Positions 52,718 to 58,600 of a DNA stretch of 64,000 bases are shown piece by piece (positions within the stretch are counted from its first letter, which is position 1; each line of letters starts with the position of its first letter). Under the pieces are notes generated by a model. The model had not been told where the DNA came from. It saw nothing but the letters and a program-made list of their open reading frames with translations, and made no database searches. A program made the position numbers and the translations under genes. The stretch is from Candidatus Bathyarchaeota archaeon (GTDB lineage Archaea > Thermoproteota > Bathyarchaeia > Bathyarchaeales > Bathycorpusculaceae), in NCBI GenBank assembly GCA_023488905.1, contig JAMDCQ010000003.1, forward strand, positions 62,001-126,000, in the 5' to 3' direction.

Positions 52718-53806
52718 ATGGTACAAGTTGGAGAAAACGCACCCAACTTCACCCTGCCAGACACAGAAAACCGAGCCCGAACCCTAAAAGAATTCCTCGC
52801 CCAAAAAGCTGTACTATTCTTCTGTGTTGACGCGTTCACATCTAACGCCACCAAAGAACTCTGCCAATTCCGAGACGCCACAAGCAGCCTCACCAACCTA
52901 AAAGCCCAAATCGTCGGCATAGACCCAAAATCCCCCGCAGCAAACAAGCGCCTAGCCGAAAAACACCGCTTACACTTCCCCATCCTAAGCGACTCCAGAG
53001 GCGAAGTTGCCCACGCATACGGGTTGGATGCGCCTAAGCGGGCGGTGTTTGTGCTTGACGAGGGCGGCGTGGTGGCTTATCGATGGGTTGCTCAAGACGC
53101 GGTGGGTGATCCTGATTATGGAGCCATCGCCCAAATCCTGCAGGCTGCACCAAAACTGCATGCGGAGCTTGCTGTGCCCAGTGTTATTACGGTTTCGAGG
53201 CAGGTTGGCAGCGGCGGAGACGAAATCGCACGGGAAGTCGCCAAACTTCTAGGCTGGTCCTACTTCGACAAAACCTTGATGGTGGAGGTGGGCAGAGAAG
53301 TCGGAGTCTCAGAGGAAGACATCGTGGATTTCTGTGAGGACACATACAAAGTGCAGACATTGGTGGACAAGATGCTGCTACGAAAGAAACCCGCCAAGCA
53401 ATCCTTCACCATAAAAGACAACGCCCACATAAGAAAAACCCTCGAAGAAGAACACTGCCTAAGCACAATCCAAACCGTCATCAACAACCTCGCCAGCAGA
53501 GGCAAAACCATAATCGTCGGCAGAGGCGGGCAAGCGATACTCAAGCATAAGCTGGGCGTGTTGCATGTGCGGATTGTTGCGCCTAAAGCGGTCAGGGTTG
53601 AGAGGGTCAAGCAGAGTGAAGGGCTAACTCAGCAAGAGGCGCAGAGGCTGGTTGAAGAAAACGACAAAGCCACAGCCGAATACCTGCAGCGCTTCTACTG
53701 CATCGACTGGGAAGACCCCACAAACTACGACATAATCCTAAACACAGCTAAGCTTGATTTGAGGGCGGCGGCGCTAATGATTGCACAGGCAGTATCCCAG
53801 ACATAG
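52718..53806 (+). CDS. Peroxiredoxin-like domain fused to a cytidylate-kinase-like domain
   Basis: 362 residues. The first ~150 residues have the peroxiredoxin fold (GENAPNFTLPDTENRARTL to PKRAVFVLDEGGVVAYRW). The peroxidatic Cys, in the usual x-C-T-K-E, reads N-A-T-K-E (FTSNATKELCQFRD), so it is lost; only the second Cys remains. Residues about 158-362 match the cytidylate-kinase-like family: P-loop ISRQVGSGGDEIAREVAK-like (TVSRQVGSGGDEIA) and IIVGRGGQAIL. Such a fusion is unusual. It may be a kinase with a redox or protein-binding module. Confidence 0.85.
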   Translation: MVQVGENAPNFTLPDTENRARTLKEFLAQKAVLFFCVDAFTSNATKELCQFRDATSSLTNLKAQIVGIDPKSPAANKRLAEKHRLHFPILSDSRGEVAHAYGLDAPKRAVFVLDEGGVVAYRWVAQDAVGDPDYGAIAQILQAAPKLHAELAVPSVITVSRQVGSGGDEIAREVAKLLGWSYFDKTLMVEVGREVGVSEEDIVDFCEDTYKVQTLVDKMLLRKKPAKQSFTIKDNAHIRKTLEEEHCLSTIQTVINNLASRGKTIIVGRGGQAILKHKLGVLHVRIVAPKAVRVERVKQSEGLTQQEAQRLVEENDKATAEYLQRFYCIDWEDPTNYDIILNTAKLDLRAAALMIAQAVSQT

Positions 53807-54078: not shown

Positions 54079-55287
54079 TTGAGGACAAAAATTTTAGGTG
54101 CATCATTGGTTTTTGGCCTTCTGATCTCAATAACTACTGGGTTAATACTTGTAGAAAACGCAGAGGCAAACCCCTACACACAACTGCATTTGCCTAAAAT
54201 AACCATCAACAACGACGGCAGCGTCACGCCTCAAACGTCCTACATAAACCGCACAGGAAACACCTATACACTTACAGCAGACATTATACTGGAGTATTCA
54301 GTCGAAATTTTGTGCAGTAACATAGTTTTCGACGGGGCAGACCACGTGGTGAACGTTGCAGTAGAAAAAGCGGAAAGTATCGATGGATACCCAGCGTATT
54401 ACATGGATGTAGGTGTAAACGTGGTAGATGCACATGATGTGGTAGTAAAAAATGTTGAGGTATTCGCCAACAACGTTAACACAATCAATCTTCAATTCAG
54501 TTCTAATTGCCAAATCGTCAATGTCACAACGGATAAAGACATCCGCGTACTAGGCGACTATAACACAATAACTCAAAGCAACGCTGGCATAGCAATTTCT
54601 CAAGGGAACAATAACCTGATAACAAAAAATAACATAACAGGAGTCTTCGTCGGCTCAGATTCTATTGGTAACAGGTTTTACCAGAACAATTTTTACCTGA
54701 CGGATTACCCAGAATTCTTTTCAAGCAGCGTCTGGGATAATGGAGCCGTCGGCAACTACTGGGCTAACTATTCGATAAAGTACCCTGACGTTTTAGAAGT
54801 TGACAAAACTGGAATCGGCGACACACCTTACACAATAACAAGGGGAGGGTACACAACCAAAGAATATCCCAACGTCGTAAGCATCGACCATTACCCGCTC
54901 ATGTATCCATGGGGAACCCCAGAAGTCACGTTGCTAAACATACAAAACCAATCCTACTCAGGGAGCGTTTCACTGAACTTTTCGTTAAGCAAACCAGCGC
55001 AATGGATAAAGTACAGTGTAGATGGCGGCGAAAACGTAACTATCACGGGGAACTCTACGCTGGAAGGTTTGGCAGTGGGGCTTCATAATGTTACTGTTTA
55101 TGCCTGTGACGTATTTGGGGAAGTCGGAGCTGAAACGGCAGAATTCACTGTCGACCAAGCTCTTGTCTGGCCAGTTGCCGCGATTTCGGTTGCAGCAATC
55201 GGCTTAACTGTAGCGGCGATTATGTCTTGGAAACGAGTCAAGAAAAATAGGTTACTCTTCTTCTTGCGCCATAGGTTCCTGCGGTGA
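54079..55287 (+). CDS. Secreted right-handed beta-helix surface protein
   Basis: 402 residues, TTG start. Signal peptide (about 5-29), then a NosD/PbH1-like parallel beta-helix (about 60-225; repeats such as NNLITKNNITGVFVGSDSIG and NRFYQNNFYLTD). An Ig-like domain follows (about 285-355), then a membrane helix (about 360-380) and a basic tail. It is probably a cell-surface carbohydrate-binding or structural protein. The end overlaps the convergent KITE gene by 36 nt. Confidence 0.75.
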   Translation: MRTKILGASLVFGLLISITTGLILVENAEANPYTQLHLPKITINNDGSVTPQTSYINRTGNTYTLTADIILEYSVEILCSNIVFDGADHVVNVAVEKAESIDGYPAYYMDVGVNVVDAHDVVVKNVEVFANNVNTINLQFSSNCQIVNVTTDKDIRVLGDYNTITQSNAGIAISQGNNNLITKNNITGVFVGSDSIGNRFYQNNFYLTDYPEFFSSSVWDNGAVGNYWANYSIKYPDVLEVDKTGIGDTPYTITRGGYTTKEYPNVVSIDHYPLMYPWGTPEVTLLNIQNQSYSGSVSLNFSLSKPAQWIKYSVDGGENVTITGNSTLEGLAVGLHNVTVYACDVFGEVGAETAEFTVDQALVWPVAAISVAAIGLTVAAIMSWKRVKKNRLLFFLRHRFLR

Positions 55288-55869
55288 TTGTACCTCAGTG
55301 GTTTCGGCTTTCTGTTTCTCCGCTGACAACAACATATCAATTAGCTTCTTTTGGTCTACTTCTGCGCGTGTGCGCCAATCCAAGAACAGCAGGCCCTTCT
55401 CATCTTGCGACAGGTAGCCGTGGCGGATGTAGCGGTCGAGGTTTAAGCCGACTTTCCAGTTGGCGATTTTTTCGCCCAGCAGCTTTTCGACGTCTTTGCG
55501 TGTGGCTTGCCCCTTGTTGCTGATTATGTAGCTTATGGTTATGGCTAAGCCCGCAAGGTCATCTACGCGCCAACCCATCAACTTGTCTTTGGTTACGACA
55601 TCGCGGAGCGCTACAAAGAAGCGGGCTTTGTCGAGTTCCTCAACGGTGGGTTTCTCAGGCGTCTTCTCCTCTTCGAAGACAGTTTTGACCTGCATATCCA
55701 GCGGCTTCAAATAATCATCCAAAACATCCAGCACCTTGGGGTAATCTGCGCCCAGCGCCTTGTGGAGTTCCCAACCTTTCACGCCGGGTTTAGCGTGGCG
55801 TTTGTAGAAGAGCATCTGGGTGGCTTTTTTGACTTTGGCGGCATAGAGGCCTTTGCGTTTTGCGCTCAT
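55252..55869 (-). CDS. KITE-type tandem winged-helix protein of an SMC complex
   Basis: 205 residues from the ATG at 55869, which overlaps the kleisin stop by 4 nt (ATGA). Two winged-helix units are visible: residues about 18-90 (GWELHKALGADYPKVLDVLD, then ARFFVALRD) and about 98-170 (DLAGLAITISYIISNKGQAT, RKDVEKLLGEKIANWK). This is the shape of ScpB/Nse1/Nse3 KITE proteins that bind kleisins. It ends in a charged tail. Context and fold support this; sequence identity to known KITEs is weak. Confidence 0.65.
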   Translation of the reverse strand: MSAKRKGLYAAKVKKATQMLFYKRHAKPGVKGWELHKALGADYPKVLDVLDDYLKPLDMQVKTVFEEEKTPEKPTVEELDKARFFVALRDVVTKDKLMGWRVDDLAGLAITISYIISNKGQATRKDVEKLLGEKIANWKVGLNLDRYIRHGYLSQDEKGLLFLDWRTRAEVDQKKLIDMLLSAEKQKAETTEVQSPQEPMAQEEE

Positions 55870-56684
55870 GGTTGTTTTCCCTGTTTCCATTTTTGCCAAT
55901 CTTCAACGGATACGGCGATGGGGACCGATGTGGACTGCACCGAGAGCGGCTCCTCGCGGCGCTTGATGTAGGGCAGGATGGTGACGGTTTCTTCTAAGCG
56001 GTCGATTTCCAGCGTCGCATAACCGTAAGTGACCAAGAAACTGGTGAGGAAAGCGCGTTGCACGGTTTCCTCGTAAGATTCTGCGCCGATGAAGTCCCAA
56101 TATGGGATTTTGCCAGTTGATGCGGCTTTCTGTTTGAGTTCAGCCCAGTAGCATTCGAGTTCTTCCCCGAATTCCCTGTTGCCCAGGACGCGGGCTTTAA
56201 CCATCTCTTCGCGGCTGACCATGCCCATTTCGACGGCGGAGACATCGATGTCTTTCCATCTGTCCCCCAGTGGAGCCAGCGCTTCCCAATATAGCAACCC
56301 CTGCGCGAGGCTGCTGAGGCTGAGCTGCTCAAACTCCACCAGCGGCGTCCATGCGGAGGCGAAGACTTCGACCATGCCTTCTTTGCTGGTTTGGCGAATT
56401 TTCTCTTCAAGCAGAAACGGGTCAGTGTAGAGCGAGGTGGAGCGCTGTTTTACCCATTCGCTCTGCATTTTGATGACTGAGGCGAGGTGGTGGAGCGCTT
56501 CAGCGTCCAGTCGGAGTTCGTCGGGGTGGTTCCAATGCGGGAAATACTGCTTTACGATGGCGATTATGTCGTCCACGTTCAAAGTGAATGGGTCTACTTG
56601 GCGGCTCTCGATGGCGACGCACATTTCGATGATTCGCTGTAAGCGTTCTTTGCCCAGTTTCTTCTCTTCAGCGTGCGGGGTCAT
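55866..56684 (-). CDS. Kleisin-like (ScpA-like) subunit
   Basis: 272 residues. The N-terminal part (about 29-95) fits the ScpA helical core: VDPFTLNVDDIIAIVKQYF, then LDAEALHHLASVIKMQSEWV. The C-terminus (about 205-240) has a winged helix (AFLTSFLVTYGYATLEIDRL) as kleisins do. Between them is a variable linker that could bind KITE proteins. It overlaps the SMC gene by 4 nt, so it is co-translated. It should bridge the head domains of the SMC dimer. Confidence 0.65.
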   Translation of the reverse strand: MTPHAEEKKLGKERLQRIIEMCVAIESRQVDPFTLNVDDIIAIVKQYFPHWNHPDELRLDAEALHHLASVIKMQSEWVKQRSTSLYTDPFLLEEKIRQTSKEGMVEVFASAWTPLVEFEQLSLSSLAQGLLYWEALAPLGDRWKDIDVSAVEMGMVSREEMVKARVLGNREFGEELECYWAELKQKAASTGKIPYWDFIGAESYEETVQRAFLTSFLVTYGYATLEIDRLEETVTILPYIKRREEPLSVQSTSVPIAVSVEDWQKWKQGKQP

Positions 56685-58600
56685 TTGGCTACCTCACGGA
56701 CTACGCTTTTGCCTTCGAGGTTCTGGACGGCTATGACGTTGGCGTCTTGCTGGGCGAAGGTGATTTGGCTCGGGGTGATAACGACGTACTGTGCTGCGGC
56801 GTCTTTTATCATGGCGACCAAGACTTTGGCGATCATTTCGCGGTTTTTGGGGTCCATGTGAATGTCGTATTCGTCTACTGCACGGAAGGGGCTACGCACA
56901 TGCTGCTGCAACGCCAAAAGGAAACCCATGGTTGCAGTGGTACGCTCGCCGCCGCTCTGCGTGTAAGCATCCAGCGCGACGGGTTTGCTGCCTTTGAAGC
57001 CCACATAAATCTCCAGCCCCGCCGTTTCAATGTCCTGTGGGTTGGAAAGCTGGACTTCGCCTGTTGCCAGCGTTTGGCTCATGATGCGCTGATACTCGGT
57101 GTTGACGCGGCTAAGAAGGTCCTCCATGACTGTACGCCAGGCTGCCAGGCGGGTTTTGACTTCTTCAAGGGTTTTCTCGCGGTTCTCGGCAACTAGCTGC
57201 GCTTTCTCTTTTAGCTCCAAATACAGCTTCGAGTAGGATTCATACTGCCGCTCAATCTCCTCCGAAACCGTTGCCAACGCGGCTAGGTGGCCGTCGGTTT
57301 GCCCCATCTCCTCCTGAATTTCCCCCGCGGATTTGAGGACGGCGATGCGTTCGCCTGACTCTTGCGCTTTGGCGAGGGCGGTGTTGAGGTTTTCTTGGGC
57401 TTCCTTGATGGTTTTCTCTATGTTTTCCTGTTCTTTGACGGCGCGGTCACGCTTAAAGTCAAGTAGTGCCAGAGTAACTCGTTTATCCAGTGCTTGGTTG
57501 GAGATTTTTTCGGTGGATTCTTCAAGTGTCTGCAGCTTAGCCTGATTGGCGCCTATTTGGGCGGTGGCTTTCTGGATTTGCTGCTGGGAGACGTCAAGCA
57601 TTTCTCTTAGGCTTTCGGTTCGGAGCAGCTTGAACTGGCTTTTGTCGGGGAGTGATTCGAGGATTTCAGCTTCACCCAAAAGCTGCTCAATCAACGACAG
57701 GGCGGATTGGTTCTGGGCGATTTTACGCTCCAAATCCAAACGCTCATCGAAAACGACTTTGATTTCGCCTCGGAGTCCCCTCTGCTGGCTCTGCTGCCCA
57801 TCCAACTCGCCGATAATCGCCTGCCGCTCGTCTTCGATTTTGCCCAGCACCTGCTGAGTCTTATTAAAATTGGCCTGCAACGCCTTCACGATGGCTTCGC
57901 GGCGTTCAACCTCAGCCCAAGCCAACTCCCGATCCAAAAACCGCCTCTTAAGCTGGAGCTGCTTTTTCTCTTGGAACTTCTCGTACTGCTCCCGCCAATA
58001 ATTCAGCGTCTGCTGCGCCTGCTCAAGGAGCTTGCCCACCGATTCCTCCTGGGTAAGGATGCGGGTGAGCTTGGTTTTGGCTTGCACCACATTGTTGCGG
58101 AATGGTTCGAGCCCGACGGCTTCTTCGACCATGCGGAGTTTGTCGAGGTTGCTGAGAACGGTGAACTGTTCAACCATGTTTTGGTGCATGATGATTAGCA
58201 TGTTGTCTGGGTCTACGCCGAATTTGCCCAGTAGCCGCTCGATGTCTTGTTTGGTGGCGACGCGGTTTTCGAGTTCAAAAAAGTATTTCCCGTCACGCCG
58301 CAGTACTCGGGTTAGGAAGAGTTGGTCTTTGTTGTATTTGGACTCGGGGCGTCGGTTGCCCTGTTTGCTGTTGTCCAAAATGAGGGTTACGCGGGCTTGG
58401 TCTTGTCCCCAGCGGATGAGGTCGCTGAGTTTTCGGCTGCGCTCGGTGCTGGTTTGCCCCAGCCCCACCGAAATCGCAAGCAACAGGGAGGATTTTCCCG
58501 CGCCATTTGGACCCCCAATTACGTTAACGCCCTGTTTGAAGGGAACGCGGGCGTATTCGTAGCTCATAAAGTTTTCAACGATAAGTTCCTGAATCAGCAT
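56681..58600 (-). CDS. Compact SMC5/6-like ATPase
   Basis: 639 residues from the ATG at 58600 (the TTG at 58627 is also possible). Walker A GPNGAGKS (30-37), Q-loop region IIMHQNMVEQF, then two coiled-coil arms (about 165-300 and 330-520) around a short linker near 300-330. The C-terminal head has the signature YTQSGGERTTATMG and Walker B PFRAVDEYDIHMDPKNR, close to the Smc5/6 form. There is no cysteine, so no Rad50 zinc hook, and no clear SMC hinge. Canonical SMCs have about 1,000-1,200 residues. Genes for kleisin and KITE follow with 4-nt overlaps. Confidence 0.85.
   Translation of the reverse strand: MLIQELIVENFMSYEYARVPFKQGVNVIGGPNGAGKSSLLLAISVGLGQTSTERSRKLSDLIRWGQDQARVTLILDNSKQGNRRPESKYNKDQLFLTRVLRRDGKYFFELENRVATKQDIERLLGKFGVDPDNMLIIMHQNMVEQFTVLSNLDKLRMVEEAVGLEPFRNNVVQAKTKLTRILTQEESVGKLLEQAQQTLNYWREQYEKFQEKKQLQLKRRFLDRELAWAEVERREAIVKALQANFNKTQQVLGKIEDERQAIIGELDGQQSQQRGLRGEIKVVFDERLDLERKIAQNQSALSLIEQLLGEAEILESLPDKSQFKLLRTESLREMLDVSQQQIQKATAQIGANQAKLQTLEESTEKISNQALDKRVTLALLDFKRDRAVKEQENIEKTIKEAQENLNTALAKAQESGERIAVLKSAGEIQEEMGQTDGHLAALATVSEEIERQYESYSKLYLELKEKAQLVAENREKTLEEVKTRLAAWRTVMEDLLSRVNTEYQRIMSQTLATGEVQLSNPQDIETAGLEIYVGFKGSKPVALDAYTQSGGERTTATMGFLLALQQHVRSPFRAVDEYDIHMDPKNREMIAKVLVAMIKDAAAQYVVITPSQITFAQQDANVIAVQNLEGKSVVREVAK

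Follow-up and report, generated by a model that had tools for sequence, protein, structure and literature searches.

What kind of complex can be served by an SMC ATPase of about half the usual length, and does such a protein still belong to a known SMC lineage? This question is raised by a stretch of 64,000 nucleotides (nt) from a Candidatus Bathyarchaeota archaeon (GenBank assembly GCA_023488905.1, contig JAMDCQ010000003.1, positions 62,001 to 126,000), which we call the window and within which all positions are counted. At positions 55252-58600, it carries an operon of three genes that a preliminary description, made from the sequence, had read as a minimal or ancestral Smc5/6-like complex. 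Computational analysis of this operon and its relatives finds Smc5/6-type heads, an Nse4-type kleisin, one MAGE/Nse3-like KITE gene, a predicted hinge-less SMC, and a conserved gene order. We consider it probable that the three proteins form a compact SMC-kleisin-KITE complex of archaea that belongs to the Smc5/6 lineage and would act as a homodimeric, hinge-less, ATP-gated DNA clamp, serving to organise or repair the chromosome; its assembly and function we infer by analogy with known SMC complexes.

The genes run from SMC to kleisin to KITE on the minus strand and overlap by 4 nt (ATGA) at both junctions, just as first described. The SMC gene (56681..58600) encodes 639 amino acids (aa; P0001) from an ATG start; its mechanically called open reading frame begins further upstream, at TTG 58627, and ATG 58600 was taken as the start. 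The kleisin gene (55866..56684) encodes 272 aa (P0002), and the KITE gene (55252..55869) encodes 205 aa (P0003) with a MAGE/Nse3-like predicted fold.

Relationship of the SMC heads to Smc5/6

A profile of 20 short SMCs (A1, with those of loci L042 and L044 still in it) was searched against the PDB, and its four best matches were Smc6 at 226.7, Smc5 at 212.7, Smc6 at 208.3, and Smc5 at 174.9 bits, which we take to be human, yeast, yeast, and human chains, respectively. Next came Pyrococcus SMC (169.9 bits), Smc2 (139.0), Smc1 (118.8), Smc3 (112.0), and Smc4 (105.9). The hidden Markov model comparison of the heads that the preliminary description had recommended thus puts Smc5/6 first (175-227 bits), with Smc1-4 at no more than 139 bits and Rad50 at 43 bits. 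A profile of canonical archaeal SMCs served as the opposite control (A5, 18 of 20 sequences, with L108 and L121 omitted) and ranked the same chains the other way: Pyrococcus SMC scored 600 bits, full-length Smc1-4 chains 312-447 bits, and Smc5 at most 130 bits, and Smc6 was absent among the best 60 of 290 matches.

The ATPase motifs of the window SMC are a Walker A GPNGAGKSS at residues 30-38 (58487..58513), an ABC signature QSGGER at residues 548-553 (56942..56959), and a Walker B with D-loop, PFRAVDEYDIHMDPKN, at residues 571-586 (56843..56890). The early remark that this last region resembles Smc5/6 is borne out: the Walker B form of the short SMCs, PFRAVDEFDVHMDPRNR, is shared with Smc6 (PFRCLDEFDVYMDMVNR) and Smc5 (PFRVVDEINQGMDSRNE) and differs from the canonical consensus (FYLFDEVDAHLD). 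A head tree of 52 rows separated short SMCs plus Smc5/6 from canonical SMCs plus Smc2/3 with support of 97/96, one Asgard SMC joining the Smc5/6 rows, and a second tree without L126 and L128 (both Asgard), L111, and Rad50 recovered the same split with support of 100/99. A topology uniting all four eukaryotic SMCs was rejected (approximately unbiased test, p-AU 0.0005). The named sequences closest to the window SMC in the head tree are bathyarchaeal.

On the opposite rankings of the two profile searches together with the head tree, the window SMC is by sequence an Smc5/6-type ATPase head. The short SMC group would be the sister of eukaryotic Smc5/6, a placement that does not bear out the word ancestral in the preliminary description, since the hinge may just as well have been lost as have been lacking from the start.

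NCBIfam matches raise the alternative that the protein is a relative of Rad50, of coalescin/Sph (ASRP), or of arcadin-4, merely standing beside a kleisin-like gene: the ASRP model matches along the protein at 60.9 bits and Rad50 models match at 47-71 bits. The ASRP cut-off, however, is 300 bits, Rad50 reaches no more than the 43 bits given above with the family profile, and P0001, being free of cysteine, lacks a zinc hook. Elsewhere in the genome lie a CPVC-hook Rad50 and an adjoining Mre11-like gene, both named by eye. We regard such kinship as highly improbable. The absence of cysteine, which had been put forward at the outset, holds for the window SMC but is not a trait of the family, for it is shared by 6 of 26 aligned short SMCs (the window SMC included) and the other 20 have 1-4 cysteines.

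A short SMC without a recognizable hinge

The window SMC has 639 aa, as against about 1090-1160 aa in Smc5/6 chains, so that the estimate of half the usual length was sound. Its relatives, found in many genomes, are 555-699 aa long. This rules out an assembly error or a gene from which the hinge was deleted, for which nothing was found in favour and which we rate as vanishingly improbable. Comparisons within the family rest on an alignment of 26 short SMCs (A4), which omits close copies (L036, L046, L077), sequences with unknown bases or a shifted end (L042, L044), and partial or split genes (L081, L082, L086, L087, L090).

The predicted single-chain structure of the SMC (predicted local distance difference test score, pLDDT, 86.5; predicted template modelling score, pTM, 0.60) shows an N-terminal arm formed by one helix, residues 165-315 (57656..58108), an apex turn at the hinge position, residues 316-325 (57626..57655), and a C-terminal arm, residues 326-509 (57074..57625), that returns to the head as helices 326-415, 425-441, and 449-509. 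The breaks between these helices, at 416-424 and 442-448, are probably the SMC joint, judging from aligned Smc6. Among the families listed at E ≤ 10, P0001 had no match to SMC_hinge, and across the 26 members SMC_hinge lies outside the 25 commonest of 188 families, which leaves room for a match in three members at most. The tip is of variable length among the members and poorly conserved: positions 311-340, the turn included, are occupied in only about half of them (46-55%), with a commonest-residue share of 0.17-0.20 (gaps counted), compared with 0.28-0.36 in the adjoining, fully occupied arm and up to 0.94 in the motifs. The preliminary description had reported no clear hinge and had named a clear one as evidence against itself; what the model offers is a plain turn, and no SMC_hinge family match was found. 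The window SMC is thus predicted to lack a hinge and to carry a ten-residue turn instead.

The same complex might nevertheless be closed in another way, with the SMCs dimerising through their arm tips or mid-arms to give a small closed ring that extrudes loops. SMC complexes have been described as hinge-closed rings (PMC10586767; here and below, sources given by PMC number are cited for the portion available), and a possible arm contact is offered by an RVxxAxLxY-type mid-arm motif, located 40-44 residues ahead of the joint motif in 9/9 of the rows (out of 26) where our script found both. Against dimerisation at the tips stand the variable length and poor conservation of the tip and, once more, the missing cysteine, which leaves P0001 without a zinc hook. 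We judge a closed ring of this kind possible, if rather unlikely.

An Nse4-type kleisin

The kleisin P0002 matches Pfam Nse4_C over residues 195-266 (55887..56102) with 27.0 bits, the curated cut-off being 26. A profile of 21 kleisins (A2) retrieved EID3 (1.5e-5) and Nse4 (4.6e-5) from the PDB. However, 20 of these 21 had been fetched through Nse4_C itself (from 20 of the 25 other genomes that it matched), and the 21/21 of A2 is for this reason no independent count. Because of this selection, the test was repeated with 13 kleisins, along with 13 KITEs, fetched through the SMC. Nse4_C matched 8 of the 13 kleisins at E ≤ 1, the best at 2.7e-5, and their profile gave Nse4/EID3 chains as its four best PDB matches (4.4e-4 to 0.011). 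Across the 101 genomes of our survey of the phylum, Nse4_C was found at E ≤ 0.01 in 26, above the cut-off in five; the kleisin was found by profile in all 26 of these and the short SMC in 25.

The gene had been introduced as a ScpA-like kleisin. That it is a kleisin stands, and its N-terminus bears a weak likeness to ScpA (E 0.33), but in a profile comparison with archaeal ScpA the kleisin matched just weakly, at the C-terminus (E 0.0024, probability 12). By sequence, the C-terminal domain is of the Nse4 type.

A KITE protein with a MAGE/Nse3-like predicted fold

The third protein had been called a tandem winged-helix protein, and its predicted structure (pLDDT 80.6, pTM 0.56) does contain two winged helices, at residues 2-88 (55606..55866) and 102-163 (55381..55566). 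A Foldseek search with this model placed MAGE-G1 (E 1.6e-5), MAGE-A4 (3.9e-5), a chain of the Nse1-Nse3-Nse4 complex (5.3e-5), and MAGE-A4 again in the first four ranks, followed by JetABC as fifth (4.3e-4), MAGE-A11, ScpB as eighth, and MukE further below. Pfam MAGE was found in 6 of 21 KITEs (best 0.0026) and in 4 of the 13 fetched through the SMC (best 3.6e-4), one of the 13 also matching SMC_Nse1 (4.1e-4). The models thus point to P0003 being a KITE subunit with a MAGE/Nse3-like predicted fold.

Together, the profile searches, the head tree, the Nse4-type kleisin, and the MAGE/Nse3-like KITE fold support the idea of a minimal Smc5/6-like complex.

Conservation of the operon

The search of other genomes for the same three-gene order, also recommended at the outset, found it widely. 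Of 20 loci fetched through kleisin matches, 19 have the genes in the order SMC-kleisin-KITE. A scan of the collection with the SMC alone gave at least 27 loci. Those listed are 16 family members (L075-L090), one locus with a Lokiarchaeal SMC, and ten bacterial loci that match general ATPase motifs weakly. Among the matches listed, 13 of the 16 family loci have all three genes in this order; none of the three is whole at L081, L082, and L086, the SMC is partial at L087, and it is split over two frames at L090. In the phylum survey, the short SMC (E ≤ 1e-30) was counted in 51 genomes, i.e., 54 less three (G029, G037, G043) whose sole matches lie in SMCs of 1175-1180 aa, and the kleisin and the KITE in 50 each; 49 genomes have all three genes, out of 52 with any. 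The gene order is thus conserved, above chance.

Named carriers of all three genes include Bathyarchaeota, Thermofilales, Methanodesulfokora, Calditenuaceae, and a Hadesarchaeon, and in the phylum of a Hadesarchaea-labelled genome the kleisin profile matches 21 of 28 genomes, two of them as fragments. The source genome has one SMC_N gene of the short-SMC type, and in each genome the short-SMC matches lie in one frame. By profile there is likewise one KITE gene per genome (in two pieces in G063), a count that a strongly diverged second copy would escape.

In the Asgard phylum to which a Lokiarchaeon belongs, 4 of 148 genomes had an Nse4_C match at E ≤ 0.01, two of the matches spanning 25 columns in frames longer than 1100 aa, and the kleisin profile matched one genome of the 148 (G205). 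At that locus, L126 (G205:C1:1129000-1142000), an AAA-like ATPase (so named by eye), an SMC of 1057 aa, a 322-aa protein, and a kleisin of 313 aa stand in a row; Nse4_C matches the kleisin weakly, and the long-branched SMC falls with Smc5/6 in the head tree (support 97/94). A second locus, L128 (G101:C53, 5880-10516), is possibly another SMC-kleisin-KITE operon: a Lokiarchaeal SMC of 1145 aa that carries a hinge stands before a 220-aa protein and one of 196 aa that weakly matches ScpB.

Coexistence with canonical SMC

Could the short complex be a canonical Smc-ScpAB that diverged after losing its hinge and came to resemble Smc5/6 by convergence? The best NCBIfam match of P0001 is indeed the canonical SMC_prok_A (172.9 bits, below the cut-off of 729.4), the N-terminal half of the short SMC aligns with canonical SMC in a profile comparison, and the N-terminus of the kleisin bears its faint likeness to ScpA. 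Against such an origin are the opposite profile rankings, the head tree, and Nse4_C, as well as the 22 of 52 genomes that hold both the short complex and a hinge-bearing SMC. We consider it very improbable.

Some of the other carriers have a long SMC by other evidence. In 15 genomes with the short complex (11 of family f9, three of f13, and one of f25; completeness 89-99%), no frame of more than 907 aa was found with SMC_N at E ≤ 1e-8, a result that a long SMC broken by the assembly could escape. G092 and G098, in which general scans found no long SMC, lay outside this targeted search and are hence not among the 15. The ScpA model had no match in f9, f13, or f25, though it is insensitive here, matching 17 of 41 genomes with a hinge-bearing SMC. 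Neither a hinge-bearing SMC nor ScpA was found in the source genome, which is incomplete (about 91%). Within the genus of the window (G000, G080, G094), the short complex and canonical SMC with ScpA look mutually exclusive, possibly through incompleteness.

Archaeal Smc-ScpA is reported generally to work without a KITE subunit, and smc, scpA, and scpB to be absent from Crenarchaeota (Jeon et al., PMC7055376). In lineages without Smc-ScpA, the short complex would be the main SMC complex. It is a tentative proposal, somewhat doubtful at present, that a homodimeric hinge-less complex of the Smc5/6 type is the sole chromosomal SMC machine in several archaeal lineages that yielded neither a long SMC nor ScpA, and that eukaryotic Smc5/6 inherited its Nse4-KITE toolkit from such an archaeal complex before its SMC and KITE genes doubled.

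Genomic surroundings and the question of defence

The preliminary description had also allowed for a role in defence, and a system of the Wadjet, Lamassu, or MADS kind does find some support in database matches: the PADLOC models mad3 (6.7e-24) and LmuB (3.7e-21) match the window SMC, and among structures similar to the KITE model JetABC ranks fifth. We take the mad3 and LmuB matches as general ATPase likeness. Neither the kleisin nor the KITE of the window matched any PADLOC model at E ≤ 0.01, a scan of six genes in the window and ten flanking genes in relatives (part of the neighbours) showed no nuclease or effector, and the genes of the complex are regularly present in two archaeal phyla. 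The ten flanking genes, taken from eight loci, include two for Lhr-type helicases and one for a eukaryotic-type topoisomerase IB, the rest being metabolic, transcriptional, or unclear. From the distribution and the neighbours scanned, chromosome upkeep is favoured over defence, which we rate as very unlikely. On the evidence against each of them, the identities of canonical Smc-ScpAB, Rad50, ASRP, and Wadjet were rejected.

The Lhr-type helicase and topoisomerase IB genes lie beside the operon at L035 (4175-7075), L054 (5031-7499), and L038 (6276-7826). In the window, the operon differs little in GC content (0.48-0.55) from its surroundings (0.43-0.52), and a bacterial-type scan of the operon for promoters and terminators gave no sites above those in shuffled sequence. 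A gene at 52718-53806 fuses a peroxiredoxin-like domain with a cytidylate-kinase-like domain.

Proposed mechanism

In Smc5/6 and Smc-ScpAB, ATP joins two heads, the kleisin bridges a neck and a head, and KITE subunits work on the kleisin. By analogy, two copies of the short SMC would sandwich ATP between their heads, and the kleisin would bridge them, its N-terminal part on one neck and its winged helix on the other head. A KITE homodimer would sit on the middle of the kleisin and pin DNA onto the engaged heads. The arms, each spanning about 150 residues (22 nm), would not be joined by a hinge. Lacking one, the dimer would have to rely for its cohesion on the heads, on the kleisin and KITE, and perhaps on contacts of the arms, and its opening and closing would have to be governed by heads, kleisin, and arm contacts.

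Several observations tell against a clamp of the Smc5/6 lineage and are set out together here. For the heads, only 5 bits separate human Smc5 from Pyrococcus SMC in the A1 search, just two eukaryotic Smc5/6 rows stand in the tree, both long-branched and with a long-branch warning from the tree program, the Smc2 and Smc3 rows span just the N-terminal head, and in NCBIfam the canonical model noted above matches best. The SMC model is one chain, with dimerisation outside its reach. Nse4_C had no match in 24 of the 50 kleisin genomes, nor in 5 of the 13 kleisins fetched through the SMC, and it also matched one of 14 control genomes (Thermotoga maritima), below the cut-off. The KITE model has the pTM of 0.56 given above, and its first three Foldseek matches have TM-scores of 0.35-0.51 and root-mean-square deviations of 6-16 Å; P0003 itself matched no Pfam family at E ≤ 1, and the KITE profile A3 had six PDB matches at E ≤ 10, none of them a KITE. 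The exception among the 20 loci, L037 in genome G085, has a kleisin and a KITE that are separated and an SMC that is kilobases off on the opposite strand. Co-occurrence is broken in G035, G063, and G084, the genes of G063 lying where a contig begins, and G080 and G094, which belong to the same genus as the window, are without the short complex and have canonical SMC and ScpA.

Comparison with known systems

One of the parts held to define an SMC complex is its hinge. If the proposed clamp is real, a kleisin-SMC complex can work without one, and a family with head, kleisin, and KITE but no hinge would separate the role of the hinge from that of the head-kleisin-KITE clamp. Such a complex would be small enough to produce and solve whole. 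It would provide an archaeal relative for core parts of eukaryotic Smc5/6, and, for archaea that yielded neither a long SMC nor ScpA, a candidate for folding the chromosome.

The eukaryotic Smc5/6 complex consists of Smc5, Smc6, Nse4, and Nse1/Nse3. With it, the window operon shares the head clade, the Walker B type, an Nse4-type kleisin, and a KITE with a MAGE/Nse3-like predicted fold. It differs in having one SMC gene rather than two, one KITE rather than two, shorter arms (reflected in the chain lengths given above), no hinge, and no RING subunit in the operon. We therefore set it apart from Smc5/6 proper, as two SMCs, a hinge, and two KITEs are not found in it, even though its SMC and kleisin are of that lineage.

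An archaeal clade of "SMC5/6-related" SMCs is already known from phylogeny (PMC9389158), and the short SMC probably belongs to this same clade, the likeness being drawn by clade and not sequence by sequence; the word kleisin is absent from the main text of that paper. Among the literature matches listed (titles and opening lines of abstracts), there was no description of a hinge-less kleisin-SMC or of an archaeal Nse4-KITE operon, and van Hooff et al. 2024 and Yoshinaga and Inagaki 2021 lay outside this coverage. The main risk to novelty is the first of these (bioRxiv, "Shaping Up Genomes"), which may overlap partly with the present work.

Archaeal Smc-ScpA also combines an SMC with a kleisin and shares the ATPase and the joint, but has a canonical head, a hinge, and ScpA (PMC7055376); these last three features of Smc-ScpAB are not found in the window operon, and the source genome gave no ScpA match. 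The ASRP family (coalescin, Sph) is likewise made up of short archaeal SMC-like ATPases, but differs in having a zinc hook in most members, belonging to another clade, and having no conserved neighbours (PMC9389158). Finally, Wadjet JetABCD and MukBEF share the set of SMC, kleisin, and KITE, as well as the KITE fold, with the window operon; the PADLOC JetC model scores 32 bits with the window SMC, and Wadjet adds the JetD nuclease, a counterpart of which is not among the neighbours scanned.

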